This document shows positions 30,365 through 56,852 of a DNA stretch of 62,562 bases, one piece after another. How positions within the stretch are numbered: position 1 is the stretch's first letter; each line of letters starts with the position of its first letter. The stretch is from Sphingobium sp. Lineage in GTDB: Bacteria; Pseudomonadota; Alphaproteobacteria; Sphingomonadales; Sphingomonadaceae. Position numbers and translations under genes: made by a program. The notes under the pieces are model-generated. The model worked only from the letters and a program-made list of their open reading frames with translations. It was not told where the DNA came from and searched no databases. The stretch covers positions 1 to 62,562 of the forward strand of contig JAGNYO010000008.1 in assembly GCA_017984895.1 (NCBI GenBank), in the 5' to 3' direction.

Positions 30365-30618
30365 CAACACCTCTTGTGCGCAGCGGAACTGCGTAAAACC
30401 TCATTCCCCGAAACGACAAACACGCCGGTGGACGAAAACTCGCCGACCAGCGTCGATCCTTGGATCATCGGGCAAACGGCCCAAGCCAGGGATGTCATCA
30501 GGGCGCCAGACAGGCTCAAGGCCCGCTGACTGAAGCCGCGCATAGGGGAAAGCGCGGGAAATGGCAAGTGCAGCTATGCCCTTTCCTTGGGTATGCCAGC
30601 GCCTTATGCTTAGCTGTC

Positions 30619-38504: not shown

Positions 38505-38925
38505 GCCAGAGGGTCGGGCGGCCGCGGCGGGGGAAACTCCGGCGAGGAAAGTCCGGGCTCCACGAAACAACGGTGCCGGTTAACTGCCGGCGGGGGCGAC
38601 CCCAGGGACAGTGCAACAGAGAGCAGGTCGCGTCAGTCGCAAGACTTAAGGCTTCGGCCGCGCGAAGGTGAAAGGGTGCGGTAAGAGCGCACCGCGCCCC
38701 CGGCAACGGCGGGCGGCACGGTAAACCCCACCGGGAGCAAGACCGAATAGGGACGGCGCGCTTATCTGCAAGGGTAAGCAGGGTGTTTCGCCCCAGACCG
38801 TCCGGGTTGGTTGCTTGAGGGGCGGAGTAATCCGCCTCCTAGAGGAATGGCCGCCCATCCGCCCGTATGTCCCTCACGGGAAACAGCGGCGCGGTGGACA
38901 AAACCCGGCTTACAGACCCTCTGGC
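38505..38925 (+). ncRNA. rnpB: RNase P RNA, bacterial class A
   Basis: The catalytic RNA that trims 5' leaders from pre-tRNA. The ends GCCAGAGGGTC (38505) and GACCCTCTGGC (38925) pair as stem P1. The conserved core GAGGAAAGTCCGGGCTCC is at 38544-38561, and CACGGTAAACCCCACCGGGA lies in the middle. AGAGGAATGGCCGCC and the closing ACAAAACCCGGCTTACAG complete the conserved regions. About 421 nt, a normal size for alphaproteobacteria. It falls in a protein-free gap of about 650 bases between the J-domain and PEP-CTERM genes. Confidence 0.96.
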
Positions 38926-39059
38926 GCTTTTACTCTCAAGAAAAAATAGTCCCATCCTGAAACGATTTTGGATCGCTAGCTTTCCGGCGCGAATTTTGAC
39001 TTGTCAGGGCGCATGGCATTTGTGATGAGCGATGCGTGATTACTTTACCGGGGAATAAG

Positions 39060-50845: not shown

Positions 50846-51481
50846 ATGTTCACCGGCATCGTTTCCGACATCGGCACCATCCTCTCCGCAAACCAGCGCG
50901 GCGACCTGCGGCTCGTCATTTCCTGTGATTACGACATTGACGGCGTGGCGCTCGGCGCGTCCATCGCTTGTTCAGGCGTTTGCCTCACGGTGGTCGACAA
51001 GGGCGCAGGCGCGGATGAAGATTCCACGAGCAACGGCTGGTTCGCGGTCGACGCCTCGGCCGAAACGGTGCGCCGCACCGCGCCGGGCATGTGGGAAACG
51101 GGACGCCGCCTCAACCTCGAACGCGCGCTCAAGCTGGGCGACGAACTGGGCGGTCATATCGTTACCGGCCATGTCGATGGCATCGCGACTGTGGTCGGTG
51201 TTTGCGACGAGGGAGAATCACGCCGCGTCGGTTTCACAGTCTCCCCGGAAATCGCGCCGTTCATCGCATCCAAGGGGTCTGTCACGGTCGATGGCGTATC
51301 GCTGACCGTGAACGAGGTGGTGGACCACAAAAGCGAGACGCATTTCAGCGTCAATCTGATCCCCCACACATGGGCGGTCACGACCTTGGGCGAACTGACC
51401 GTCGGGCGGCCGGTGAACATCGAAATCGACGTGCTGGCGCGCTACCTTGCCCGGCTCAAGGAACGCATCACCGTCGTCTGA
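50846..51481 (+). CDS. ribE: Riboflavin synthase, alpha subunit
   Basis: Riboflavin synthase dismutates two lumazines to riboflavin. The 211-residue protein shows the internal two-fold repeat of lumazine-binding domains: FTGIVSDIGTIL, SIACSGVCLTVVDKGA, NLERALKLGDELGGHIVTGH, then SVTVDGVSLTVNEVVDHKSE and FSVNLIPHTWAVTTLGEL. Its stop codon forms part of a half-site (TGATGTGAT, 51479-51487) that matches the palindrome in front of ribB. Confidence 0.96.
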   Translation: MFTGIVSDIGTILSANQRGDLRLVISCDYDIDGVALGASIACSGVCLTVVDKGAGADEDSTSNGWFAVDASAETVRRTAPGMWETGRRLNLERALKLGDELGGHIVTGHVDGIATVVGVCDEGESRRVGFTVSPEIAPFIASKGSVTVDGVSLTVNEVVDHKSETHFSVNLIPHTWAVTTLGELTVGRPVNIEIDVLARYLARLKERITVV

Positions 51482-51529
51482 TGTGATCCCGTGCTTGACG
51501 ATCACATTATAATGTGATTATTCACATTT
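51479..51529 (+). promoter_or_regulatory. Palindromic operator and promoter of the HTH-RibB gene
   Basis: ATCACATTATAATGTGAT (51501-51518) is a perfect 18-bp palindrome with TATAAT (51508-51513) at its centre. Further half-sites are TGATGTGAT at 51479-51487 and TTCACATTT at 51521-51529, about three and two helical turns from the matching halves. TTGACG precedes at 51495. The 48-base gap holds no Shine-Dalgarno before the ATG and is too short for an FMN riboswitch. Repressor binding here, perhaps by RibB's own HTH, is inferred. Confidence 0.7.
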
Positions 51530-52813
51530 ATGCAGACTCAACCGCTCGTCAAACACATCATCGGCCTGATCAACTCGGGCGAAATGTCGCGTTCAGGCCT
51601 TGCCCGCGCCGCCGGCCTCCATGCCAACAGCCTGCGCAAGCTCGGCGATGAAGAGTGGAACCCCACCGCCGAGACGCTGTCCCGACTCGAGGCCTATCTC
51701 GCAAAACGCGAAAGCGGCACCGCACTTGCCAGCCCGGAAGAAATTATCAACGAAGCACGCAACGGGCGCATGTTCATCCTGGTCGATGACGAGGACCGGG
51801 AAAATGAGGGCGACCTCGTGATTCCCGCCCAGATGGCGACGCCGGATGCGATCAACTTCATGGCGACCCACGGGCGCGGCCTCATCTGCCTCGCGCTCAC
51901 CAAGAGCCGGGTAGAGCATCTTGGCCTGGACCTGATGAGCCGAGCCAATGGCACCCGGCACGAAACCGCCTTCACCGTCTCGATCGAAGCGCGCGAGGGC
52001 GTGACCACCGGCATATCGGCGGCAGACAGGGCGCGGACCGTCGCGGTCGCAATCGACTCCTCCAAAGGCCGGCAGGATATTGTTACCCCCGGCCATGTAT
52101 TCCCGCTGGTGGCGCGCGATGGCGGCGTGCTGGTGCGCACCGGCCATACAGAGGCGGCGGTCGATGTGTCGCGGCTGGCGGGTTTGAACCCTTCCGGCGT
52201 AATCTGCGAGATCATGAAAGACGACGGCACCATGGCGCGGCTGGATGATCTCATCCCCTTTGCCCAGCGCCACAGCATGAAGATCGGCACGATCCGTGAC
52301 CTGATCGCCTATCGCCGCCGCCATGATCATCTGCTCGAAAAGCGTGCCGAGGTGACATTCACCAGTCGCTGGGGCGGGGAATGGAAAGCCATCACCTTCT
52401 TCAACCGGGCCACGCAAAACGAACAGCTTGTCCTTCAGAAGGGCCATATCGACCCTGACGCCCCTACCCTCGTCCGCATGCACCAGATGAACCCGCTGGT
52501 CGACGCGCTCGGTGAGGAAAGCCCGCGATCGGGCGTGCTGGCGCGCGCCATGGAGATCATTGGCGAGGAGGGCGCGGGCCTGATTGTCGCTATCAACCGC
52601 CGCGCGCCGGATGATTTCACGCGCATGCTGCGGCAACGATCCGGCGAGACACCGCGTGACATGGATGAATTGCGGGATTATGGGGTCGGCGCGCAGATCC
52701 TCGCCGATATGGGGGTGCATGACATGGTGCTGCTCACCAACACGCAGCACAGCCTCGTCGCGCTCGATGGCTATGGCCTCGCAGTGGTGGGCCAGCGCTC
52801 CATTGATATTTAA
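51530..52813 (+). CDS. ribB: DHBP synthase RibB with N-terminal HTH and degenerate GTP-cyclohydrolase half
   Basis: The 427-residue protein has three parts. Residues 1-60 look like a Cro/XRE-type helix-turn-helix (MSRSGLARAAGLHANSLRKL, then WNPTAETLSRLEAYL). Residues 68-275 are the DHBP synthase that makes the four-carbon unit of riboflavin from ribulose-5-phosphate, with intact DDEDRENEGDLVIPA, HGRGLICLAL and VRTGHTEAAVDVSRLAGLNP. Residues 285-427 follow the GTP cyclohydrolase II fold but lack the zinc cysteines and the RQEGRGIG arginine motif (MHQMNPLVDALGEE replaces the Cys-rich stretch), so that activity should be lost. A perfect palindrome lies upstream. No Shine-Dalgarno is seen, so translation may start on a nearly leaderless mRNA. 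Confidence 0.92.
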   Translation: MQTQPLVKHIIGLINSGEMSRSGLARAAGLHANSLRKLGDEEWNPTAETLSRLEAYLAKRESGTALASPEEIINEARNGRMFILVDDEDRENEGDLVIPAQMATPDAINFMATHGRGLICLALTKSRVEHLGLDLMSRANGTRHETAFTVSIEAREGVTTGISAADRARTVAVAIDSSKGRQDIVTPGHVFPLVARDGGVLVRTGHTEAAVDVSRLAGLNPSGVICEIMKDDGTMARLDDLIPFAQRHSMKIGTIRDLIAYRRRHDHLLEKRAEVTFTSRWGGEWKAITFFNRATQNEQLVLQKGHIDPDAPTLVRMHQMNPLVDALGEESPRSGVLARAMEIIGEEGAGLIVAINRRAPDDFTRMLRQRSGETPRDMDELRDYGVGAQILADMGVHDMVLLTNTQHSLVALDGYGLAVVGQRSIDI

Positions 52814-52825
52814 GGAGTATCCGAG

Positions 52826-53248
52826 GTGGCCCATTTCCTGATCGTCGAGGCGCGGTTCTACGACCATCTCAATGACCTGCTGATTGAGGGGGCGGCGGCA
52901 GCGCTCGAGACCGCCGGGCACACGCACGAGGTGCTCAGCGTGCCTGGCGCGCTCGAGATTCCGGCCGCAGTCGCCCTCGCGAGCGAGAGCGGACGCTATG
53001 ACGGCTATATCGCCATCGGTGTCGTCATTCGCGGCGAAACCTACCACTTCGAGGTGGTATCGAACGAAAGCGCCCGCGCCCTGATGGCCCTGTCGCTGGA
53101 TGGCCTGCCCATCGGCAACGGCATCCTGACGGTCGAAAACGAGGCACAAGCCCTCACCCGCGCCCGCCGCACCGAGAAGGACAAGGGCGGCGAAGCGGCC
53201 AAGGCAGCGATGCGCATGCTTGAACTGCGCGCGAAATTTGCTGGCTGA
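52826..53248 (+). CDS. ribH: 6,7-dimethyl-8-ribityllumazine synthase
   Basis: RibH condenses the RibB product with the RibD-derived pyrimidine. The 140-residue protein opens [20 protein letters not shown], with the phosphate-binding loop [20 protein letters not shown] and its catalytic His in [22 protein letters not shown] is the second landmark. Translation starts at GTG 52826, with AAGGAG about 9 bases upstream, just after the ribB stop. It completes the set ribD-ribE-ribB-ribH. Confidence 0.96.
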
Positions 53249-54984: not shown

Positions 54985-55779
54985 ATGTCTCAGACTCTCA
55001 AGATTGCATCGTGGAATATCAACAGCGTCCGCGCCCGTATCGATCTCGTCACCCGCTTCCTGAGCGAGGAAGGGCCGGATATCCTGTGCCTTCAGGAAAC
55101 CAAGGTGACGGACGATATTTTCCCCGGCGGCGTGTTTCGTCAGATGGGCTACAACCATCATATCCTCCACGGTCAGCCGATGCACCACGGCGTCGCGATC
55201 ATCAGCAAGGTGCCGATGCGCGAGGACGACCGTCTGGACTGGCAGGCCAATCGCGAGGCGCGCCATGTTGGTGTGCGGCTCGACAACGGCGTGCGGCTGG
55301 AGAATGTCTATGTGCCGGCGGGAGGCGAGGTGCCTGATCTCGTAGAGAACCCCAAATTCGGGCAAAAACTCGCCTTTCTGGAGCGGATGGTTGAATGGTC
55401 CGCCAAGCTGTCCGTGCCGACTATCCTTACCGGAGATTTCAACATCGCGCCGCTCGAATGCGATGTGTGGAGCCACAAACAGCTTGTCGATGTGGTTAGC
55501 CATACTGCGGTGGAATGTGAAATACTGGCCCGAATGCAGGCCGCGCATGGCTGGGTGGACATCGGTCGACAGTTTTACCCTGAGCCGCAACGCCTCTACA
55601 CCTGGTGGAGCTATCGCGCGAAGGACTGGCTGGCCTCTGATCGTGGGCGCAGGCTTGATCATATGTGGGTCAGCCCCGAACTCGCGGAGAAGGCCATTCG
55701 CCACCGGGTGATCGAATCCTGCCGCAGTTGGGCCAGACCGTCCGATCATGCGCCGCTGATCACCGAGTTCGCCTTCTGA
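54985..55779 (+). CDS. xthA: Exodeoxyribonuclease III / AP endonuclease
   Basis: The enzyme cuts DNA 5' to abasic sites in base-excision repair. The 264-residue protein has KIASWNINSVRARIDLVTRF, ILCLQETKVTDDIFP (metal-binding Glu), NVYVPAGGEVPDLVENPKFG, and the catalytic TILTGDFNIAPLECDVW. RRLDHMWVSPELAEKA and the final PSDHAPLITEF carry the catalytic His. The start at 54985 fits the family; a longer frame runs through the upstream terminator and is not coding. The stop overlaps the ribA start (TGATG). Confidence 0.95.
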   Translation: MSQTLKIASWNINSVRARIDLVTRFLSEEGPDILCLQETKVTDDIFPGGVFRQMGYNHHILHGQPMHHGVAIISKVPMREDDRLDWQANREARHVGVRLDNGVRLENVYVPAGGEVPDLVENPKFGQKLAFLERMVEWSAKLSVPTILTGDFNIAPLECDVWSHKQLVDVVSHTAVECEILARMQAAHGWVDIGRQFYPEPQRLYTWWSYRAKDWLASDRGRRLDHMWVSPELAEKAIRHRVIESCRSWARPSDHAPLITEFAF

Positions 55780-56852
55780 TGAGCGCCGAGGCGGCCGCGC
55801 GGGCTGTCGCCAAGGCCATAGACGCGCTGCGGCGTGGCTGGGCGGTTGAGGTGATGGCGGCTGGGCAATGCCTACATCTGCTGGCGGTTGAAAGTGCGGA
55901 TGAACAAAATCTTCCCGCGTTCGATCCCACCAACGCAGCTCCTATCCTCATCTCAGCCGCGCGGGCGCACACGCTGCACCTTGCCAACCAGCGCGAGGCC
56001 GCGGACCCTGAGGCGCCGGTGCTGGTGCAGCGGGAAAGCTGGATCGATCTGGGCGGGGCGATGGCGCTGGCGGACCCGGTGCGCGATCTCGCGACGCCTC
56101 TGAAAGGCCCCTATCGCGCCCTGCCGCTTAGCCAACCGGATGCTGCTGCTGGGGCGCTGCGCCTTGCCCGCTTGGCGGGAATATTGCCCGCTTTTTTCGT
56201 GGCGCCCGCGCCTGTCTCTACCGAGGCAAGCGCAGAGGCGGATGCGATCCTCGTATATGGCGGCGGGCCGCAGCTCCATATAGCGACGCGCGCGCGCCTG
56301 CCGGTATCTGTAGCGGAAAGCGCGGAAATTTGGGCATTCCGCACTCTTGGTGACCCACGTGAGCATGTCGCGCTCGTGGTCGGCGCACGCGATGACAGTG
56401 TGCCGGTGGTAAGGCTGCACAGCGAATGCCTGACCGGCGATGTGCTGGGCAGCCTCAAGTGCGATTGCGGGCCGCAGCTCCACGCCGCCCTGCATCAAAT
56501 AGCGAACGCGCGCTGGGGCGTGCTGCTCTACCTCCGGCAGGAGGGGCGCGGCATTGGCCTCATCAACAAGCTGCGTGCCTATGCGCTTCAGGATCAGGGG
56601 TTTGACACGGTCGATGCGAATGTGCGCCTCGGCTTCGCGATCGACGCGCGCGATTTTTCGGTGGCGGCGCAGATGCTGCGGCTGCTGGCGGTTGAGGAAG
56701 TGCGGCTGCTTACCAACAATCCCGCCAAGGTTGCGGGGCTGGAGGCGGAAGGCGTGAAGGTGAAGGAGCGAGTGCCCCTCGCGATTGAACCTAATCCGCA
56801 TAATGCCCGCTATCTCGATACCAAGCGGGATCGCACCGGGCATCAGCTATGA
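55779..56852 (+). CDS. ribA: GTP cyclohydrolase II with vestigial RibB-like N-terminus
   Basis: RibA opens GTP to start riboflavin synthesis. The C-terminal half (about 190-357) is complete: zinc cysteines in HSECLTGDVLGSLKCDCGPQ, the catalytic RQEGRGIGLINKLRAYALQD, and LLTNNPAKVAGLEAEGVKV. The first 165 residues (AIDALRRGWAVEVMAAGQCL ... VLVQRESWIDLGGAMALADP) have the length and faint pattern of a DHBP synthase domain but lack its acidic DDEDRENEGD motif, so this half is probably inactive. It mirrors the RibB protein encoded 3 kb upstream. It overlaps xthA by one base. Confidence 0.94.
   Translation: MSAEAAARAVAKAIDALRRGWAVEVMAAGQCLHLLAVESADEQNLPAFDPTNAAPILISAARAHTLHLANQREAADPEAPVLVQRESWIDLGGAMALADPVRDLATPLKGPYRALPLSQPDAAAGALRLARLAGILPAFFVAPAPVSTEASAEADAILVYGGGPQLHIATRARLPVSVAESAEIWAFRTLGDPREHVALVVGARDDSVPVVRLHSECLTGDVLGSLKCDCGPQLHAALHQIANARWGVLLYLRQEGRGIGLINKLRAYALQDQGFDTVDANVRLGFAIDARDFSVAAQMLRLLAVEEVRLLTNNPAKVAGLEAEGVKVKERVPLAIEPNPHNARYLDTKRDRTGHQL

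Follow-up and report, generated by a model that had tools for sequence, protein, structure and literature searches.

A predicted helix-turn-helix domain fused to RibBX in Sphingomonadaceae and a conserved putative operator at its own gene

The window analysed here is a stretch of 62,562 nucleotides from Sphingobium sp. and carries riboflavin genes in the order ribD, ribE, ribB (51530-52813) and ribH, with a gap of 48 bp between ribE and ribB (Table 1). This gap is AT-rich, at 35% G+C against 63% for the window. The source assembly comprises 2.44 Mb, and ribB is the sole DHBP synthase match in its own genome. Around 65 residues of RibB precede the DHBP synthase domain, which keeps the motifs DRENEGD, PGHVFPL and HTEA when aligned to PDB 6mnz and 4i14; we take these motifs to hold the catalytic residues. 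The C-terminal domain (RibX) has N, P and S at the positions where three zinc cysteines stand in 4i14, which argues against its assignment as a GTP cyclohydrolase II. The separate ribA gene presumably supplies the activity missing from RibX; in the protein that it encodes, around 170 residues precede the GTP cyclohydrolase II domain. A preliminary description, made from the letters of this stretch, had proposed a helix-turn-helix (HTH) domain fused to RibB. The fusion itself stood, but the domain is joined to a RibBX whose C-terminal part is degenerate, and not to plain RibB. Judged from its sequence, the window protein is a three-domain HTH-RibB-RibX, that is, RibBX with an HTH added (hereafter HTH-RibBX). 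Its gene is probably on one transcript with ribH, and a same-strand RibH match was found in 37 of the 38 fusion loci with enough flank. Elsewhere in the window there were matches to RNase P RNA (38506-38928) and to the ffh sRNA (30415-30467).

Table 1 Features of the ribE-ribB-ribH region and of ribA, in window positions.
Feature	Position	Strand	Remarks
ribE (riboflavin synthase, Lum_binding)	50846..51481	+	upstream gene; Pfam PF00677, 7.8e-46
Upstream half-site TGTGAT, right half of the second putative operator position	51482..51487	+	conserved; 31-bp spacing in the window
TTGACG, probable -35 element	51495..51500	+	directly before the palindrome; TTG conserved in relatives
Main putative operator ATCACATTATAATGTGAT, perfect 18-bp palindrome	51501..51518	strandless	unique in the window and conserved
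GATTAT, probable -10 element	51516..51521	+	overlaps the operator end; GATA in most relatives; assignment inferred
TTCACATT, downstream half-site	51521..51528	+	absent from the nearest relative, L003; not generally conserved
HTH domain of RibB, about residues 1-62	51530..51715	+	profiles, fold, invariant residues in the 25-36 region
DHBP synthase domain of RibB	51737..52312	+	PF00926, 4.2e-83; Pfam residues 70-261
RibX, GTP cyclohydrolase II-like domain	52343..52795	+	PF00925, 4.1e-31; zinc cysteines absent
ribH (lumazine synthase)	52826..53248	+	PF00885; starts 12 bp after ribB
ribA, separate gene	55776..56852	+	full-scoring GTP cyclohydrolase II domain, PF00925, 5.9e-60

The N-terminal segment of the window protein, searched alone, matched HTH_26 below the Pfam threshold (E 0.014). 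Among 34 relatives, Pfam matches at E <=0.1 were to HTH_3 (24), HTH_26 (22) and HTH_31 (19), the best at 2.6e-4. A profile search of the domain against the sequences of solved structures gave no meaningful match. The AlphaFold model of the domain had a pLDDT of 81.8, with no helix assigned at the position of the recognition helix, and a Foldseek search with this model returned mostly XRE proteins at high probability, but with every E at 0.14 or above. Its neighbours were C.EcoT38IS, C.BclI, HipB, P22 c2, SinR and the 434 repressor; the MuB N-terminal domain and the Lac repressor, which are not XRE folds, were also within the first eleven matches. A model of full-length RibB (pLDDT 69.4, DHBP domain poor) was discarded. 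Fourteen residues were invariant in the 34 HTH sequences (A25, A27, A28, G29, L30, H31, N33, L35, R36, W43, N44, P45, T49 and L50). Nine of them lie in the expected recognition-helix stretch, where they form AxAAGLHxNxLR within residues 25-36, as would be expected if one DNA sequence were read throughout. The earlier reading of some 60 N-terminal residues as a Cro/XRE-like HTH is thus moderately supported by profiles and fold, and more strongly by the invariance of the recognition helix.

Directly upstream of ribB, the perfect 18-bp palindrome reported in the preliminary description was found where it had been placed, and ATCACATTATAATGTGAT occurs only once in the window even when three mismatches are allowed. 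Palindromy carries little weight here: 20 mononucleotide-shuffled windows contained 15 perfect 18-bp palindromes, so that one in 62 kb is common by chance, and it is conservation that marks ATCACATTATAATGTGAT as real. The best places away from ribB in the genome of the window differ from the palindrome at three positions. A wider regulon in this genome was considered and rejected, since these three-mismatch places numbered 4, against 2 for a control pattern. Two extra half-sites had also been proposed; the upstream one is conserved, while the downstream one is not generally kept, although downstream half-sites at other spacings are present in a few lineages (L039, L041, L079).

Fusion of the HTH domain to RibB is widespread in the family of the window. 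Of 298 family genomes, 239 gave a match to the domain; these cover 75 of 96 genera, and named members include Sphingobium, Sphingomicrobium and Parasphingopyxis. Among the HTH matches listed, the open frames were of 336-652 aa, as expected for RibB, and every locus that was inspected had RibB after the HTH. Among the 59 family genomes that lack an HTH match, 9 gave no RibB match and a few have RibB cut by a contig end, so some of these absences may be assembly gaps. In an order-wide sample the domain matched in 145 of 246 genomes, all but three of them in the family of the window; the three outside it were one 94-aa open frame and two matches on CoaBC. Of 24 genomes from other families in the order, 22 gave a RibB match, and none of these matches began before residue 44. 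Class-wide, 9 of 289 genomes gave a match, 3 of them within the family; the other 6 were weaker, in frames of 78-280 aa.

The putative operator accompanies the fusion. In the genus of the window the gap consensus is AATGTGATT-N-CTTGAAATAATCACATTGCAATGTGATAT, and the motif TCACAYNNNNRTGTGA was found upstream of HTH-ribB in 36 of 37 genus genomes, with 3 further copies in total. The sole genome lacking it is 60% complete and also gave no RibB match, and a reversed-pattern control yielded 0 copies in the 37 genomes. The operator scored 11-16 out of 16 at each of 79 fusion loci, which represent 45 genera and of which 33 come from the genus of the window, and it scored at least 12 at 77 of them; left out of this set were L067, which carries the HTH and scores 16, and the duplicates L001, L032 and L034. 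By contrast, 19 HTH-less loci scored 8-10, with 460 bp searched there and 180 bp at the fusion loci; fragments or second copies are represented among the 19 by L060 and L061, and L059, with 61 bases upstream, is excluded. Among 1560 mononucleotide shuffles 7 reached a score of 12 and none reached 13, and by this measure the HTH-less homologues are at chance level. Similarly, the usable named records (79 of 80, L203 being too short), whose genomes partly overlap the other set, all had RibB downstream and a site scoring 12-16, with a best score of at most 11 in the rest of the same 4 kb in 75 of 79.

At the level of whole genomes, tallied by eye, the exact motif was present in 186 of 239 family genomes with the HTH versus 3 of 59 without it. 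One copy was counted in 165 of the 186, and two or three copies in 21. The other 53 genomes with the HTH do not contain the exact motif, and degenerate forms were present where examined. One family genome, G350, has the exact motif and gave no RibB match in the search. At 28 of the 79 fusion loci no ribE match was found within about 1.3 kb upstream, and all 28 keep the operator, so the operator goes with the fusion and not with the rib cluster. The bases around it are mostly not conserved whereas the operator itself is. Co-occurrence of palindrome and fusion, an expectation of the preliminary description, was thus borne out: a site, intact or somewhat degenerate, was present at all examined fusions except one second copy.

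This exception and the history of the domain were examined phylogenetically, with 98 RibB sequences. On the best tree the HTH state has to change 9 times, and well-supported branches force 4 of these changes. An operator score of at least 11 was obtained in 51 of 52 rows with the HTH versus 2 of 46 rows without it; the threshold was set at 11 and not 12 because the fusion loci L070 and L078 score 11, and the scoring had no anchor for L057, L236, L237 and L238 and too little upstream sequence for L231 and L234. Both HTH-less copies have a score of 11, at the bottom of the range seen for fusions. Starred branches give 4 independent pairs, and in all 4 the operator tracks the HTH, with a sign test p of 0.125 at an n too small for significance; an earlier tree (64 rows, threshold 12, one mislabelled row) gave 2.7 of 4. 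The sole HTH-bearing exception is L113 (G019:C1:3662000-3665500), a second HTH-RibB copy in a genus genome in which GLPSGGLR replaces GLHANSLR and which has no operator. HTH-less second copies in the genus (L114-L117) score at most 11 anywhere in the locus, the same as background. Four loci (L065, L068, L070 and L097) form a small clade in a quick tree, and there a -35-like TTGACA apparently lies inside the upstream palindrome and the operators are arranged differently. Six loci with motif copies away from ribB in other genomes were inspected, five of them without an evident link by eye. In the sixth, L241 (G162:C1:2868000-2872900), an extra motif at 1930 lies amid half-sites, roughly 1.5 kb past the HTH-ribB end; it looks like a real multi-half-site array, and some species may have a second target.

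The position of the palindrome is promoter-like. We examined the 64 of 79 loci with the core arrangement, the other 15 having the best palindrome further upstream or some other arrangement. In 57 of the 64 a TTG precedes the palindrome by 4-9 bp, against a mean of 7.0 and a maximum of 16 in shuffles, and in 49 GATA is found at the end of the palindrome. TGTGA is located 19-21 bp before the palindrome in 53 loci, which puts it 31-33 bp, or about three turns, away from the main site's right half; over the whole of the scanned stretch it was found in 56 loci (shuffle mean 2.2, maximum 8). It is therefore probable from these patterns that the palindrome fills the spacer between a -35 and a -10 element. 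A consensus promoter scan of the ribB upstream region in the window returned no promoter, and in the window TTGACG and GATTAT are separated by 15 bp, less than is usual for a sigma-70 promoter. The suggestion that a TATAAT at the centre of the palindrome is a conserved -10 element did not survive the comparison, as the centre is TGCA in 13, TGTA in 7 and TATA in 4 of the 64 loci. In 32 of the 79 loci, 10-14 nt separate the palindrome from the ATG, with Shine-Dalgarno-like bases in 4 of the 32; such bases were present in 28 of 29 own-genus loci with a gap of at least 25 nt. The short gap, mostly without Shine-Dalgarno-like bases, suggests that the ribB transcript is probably leaderless in the lineages with a gap of about 11 nt, the window (gap 11) included.

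A leaderless transcript in these lineages would leave no room for a riboswitch. The ribE-ribB gap in the window had already been judged too short for an FMN riboswitch, and indeed no RF00050 match in the window reached threshold. Equally, RF00050 was found in 0 of 37 genus genomes, under stricter filters, and in 0 of 40 family genomes (18 without the HTH domain and 22 with it), and FMN riboswitch control of ribB was set aside across these samples. In other families the match was present in 4 of 24 genomes, with control matches in 7 of 14. Family members without the HTH thus also gave no riboswitch match, so a simple one-for-one replacement is not established.

We consider it probable (roughly 0.78) that a dimer of HTH-RibBX binds the operator, blocks RNA polymerase and so represses the ribBX-ribH promoter from which it is itself expressed. 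What the computation shows is that the HTH is fused to RibBX, that an operator precedes the gene, that the two occur together, that most genomes have one copy of the site and that its surroundings are laid out like a promoter. An enzyme that binds this operator through its HTH appears to be the best reading of these data, because the site is usually single, is absent without the domain and stays with the gene. We infer that a RibB dimer would place its two HTH domains on the palindrome, in the spacer and overlapping the -35 and -10 elements, and that a weaker second site beside the -35 element, some 32 bp upstream, would add cooperative binding. Bound HTH-RibBX would exclude RNA polymerase from the ribBX-ribH promoter, so that the enzyme would limit the synthesis of itself and of RibH; that the effect would be repression is suggested by the position of the operator. 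Repression could depend on the level of the enzyme alone or on a ligand, whether ribulose-5-phosphate, DHBP or a nucleotide or flavin bound by RibX.

The C proteins of restriction-modification systems are small XRE proteins with paired palindromes at their own promoters and leaderless transcripts, and they activate at low operator occupancy and repress at higher occupancy. Dual control of this kind, in which low occupancy of the site activates ribBX and higher occupancy at the promoter represses it to give a switch or a timed burst, is an unlikely alternative, albeit one with several points in its favour: the two operator positions about 32 bp apart flank the -35 element, C.EcoT38IS and C.BclI are among the nearest PDB folds, and a leaderless start is probable in many lineages. 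Most loci have the full palindrome over the promoter and the half-site upstream, however, which is the opposite of an activation-first arrangement, the 15 loci outside the core arrangement being less clear. C proteins are also free-standing, and the spacing and strength order of their operators differ, whereas HTH-RibBX is fused to an enzyme.

Quite improbable is a free-standing regulator, for example of the CRP/FNR type, that reads the palindrome while the HTH on RibB serves some other role. CRP-type half-sites are TGTGA/TCACA-like, and the half-sites here resemble them, but they face the opposite way (TCACA-N6-TGTGA). About one site per genome speaks against a global regulator; the lack of a site where the HTH is absent and the retention of the site by the fusion gene where ribE is not beside it speak against a free-standing one. 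A perfect inverted repeat near the ATG would fit the palindrome working as RNA (a hairpin, an attenuator or translation control), but we give this very little credence, since the repeat has no loop, comes with no terminator-like site and, by the conserved TTG/GATA geometry, would lie in the promoter ahead of the transcript start. A vestigial or structural N-terminal domain, with the conservation reflecting shared descent of a short region, would fit the weak profile scores of the window's own protein and is just as improbable, given that across genera the recognition helix holds some of the least variable residues in the domain, that the operator is conserved while the surrounding bases mostly are not, and that the second copy with a changed helix has no site.

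Returning to autorepression by HTH-RibBX, RibX is a natural candidate for an effector sensor because it is retained despite its missing catalytic cysteines. A bolder version, in which HTH-RibBX is a ligand-gated autorepressor whose RibX domain senses a pathway metabolite or flavin and other cofactor enzymes have received the same HTH module, is possible but we regard it as tentative. A related HTH is indeed present at the N-terminus of CoaBC (Flavoprotein and DFP domains) in two genomes from another family of the order (L110, G360:C1:1171000-1175500; L111, G396:C294:1500-6000), and no shared palindrome was found upstream of these two loci. The 94-aa frame with a related HTH, from another family (L112, G047:C18:4500-8500), is a possible free-standing relative of the domain. 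If true, this version would describe a portable way for vitamin enzymes to repress themselves, replacing riboswitch control across a bacterial family. More generally, in most genera of the family the enzyme itself appears to double as a DNA-binding protein, the system suggests a sensing role for RibX, and the operator, usually present in one copy per genome, is a possible tool in sphingomonads.

A full-text literature search covering open-licence papers returned no description of an HTH-RibBX system. Control of riboflavin synthesis in bacteria has been described mostly via the FMN riboswitch, which is also a common control of ribB and differs from the arrangement here in acting as RNA. Known proteins resemble HTH-RibBX in part. 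The excerpted text of one study describes RibBX as a functional RibB with a GCH2-like domain that is without GTP cyclohydrolase II activity, and the X domain of Shewanella RibBX as regulating RibB activity by an unknown mechanism (PMC10012899). The window shows the same combination of RibB, a GCH2-like domain missing key residues and a separate ribA; unlike the window protein, RibBX in that excerpt is described with no mention of an HTH or a self-binding site (PMC10012899). In Wolbachia, according to the excerpt of another report, the transcription factors wBmxR1 and wBmxR2 bind the ribA promoter and positively regulate a ribA reporter (PMC3518464); as described there they are free-standing, whereas the putative regulator in HTH-RibBX is fused to the enzyme. 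With a predicted DNA-binding domain on the enzyme and a conserved putative operator at its own gene, HTH-RibBX has, from its sequence features, the make-up of an enzyme-repressor. Archaeal RbkR joins a winged helix to riboflavin kinase, whereas HTH-RibBX carries a predicted Cro/XRE-type HTH on DHBP synthase; its domains are DHBP_synthase and GTP_cyclohydro2, with no riboflavin kinase match. As an HTH joined to a riboflavin-pathway enzyme, RbkR is described in the portion of the source available as both regulator and enzyme (PMC8305020). Among other enzyme-repressors, BirA works together with biotinyl-AMP, and PutA relocates to the membrane. Both are described in an excerpted source as pathway enzymes that repress the operon of their own pathway (PMC6978683). 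HTH-RibBX would be like these two as an enzyme-repressor, while the enzymes, pathways and effectors differ.
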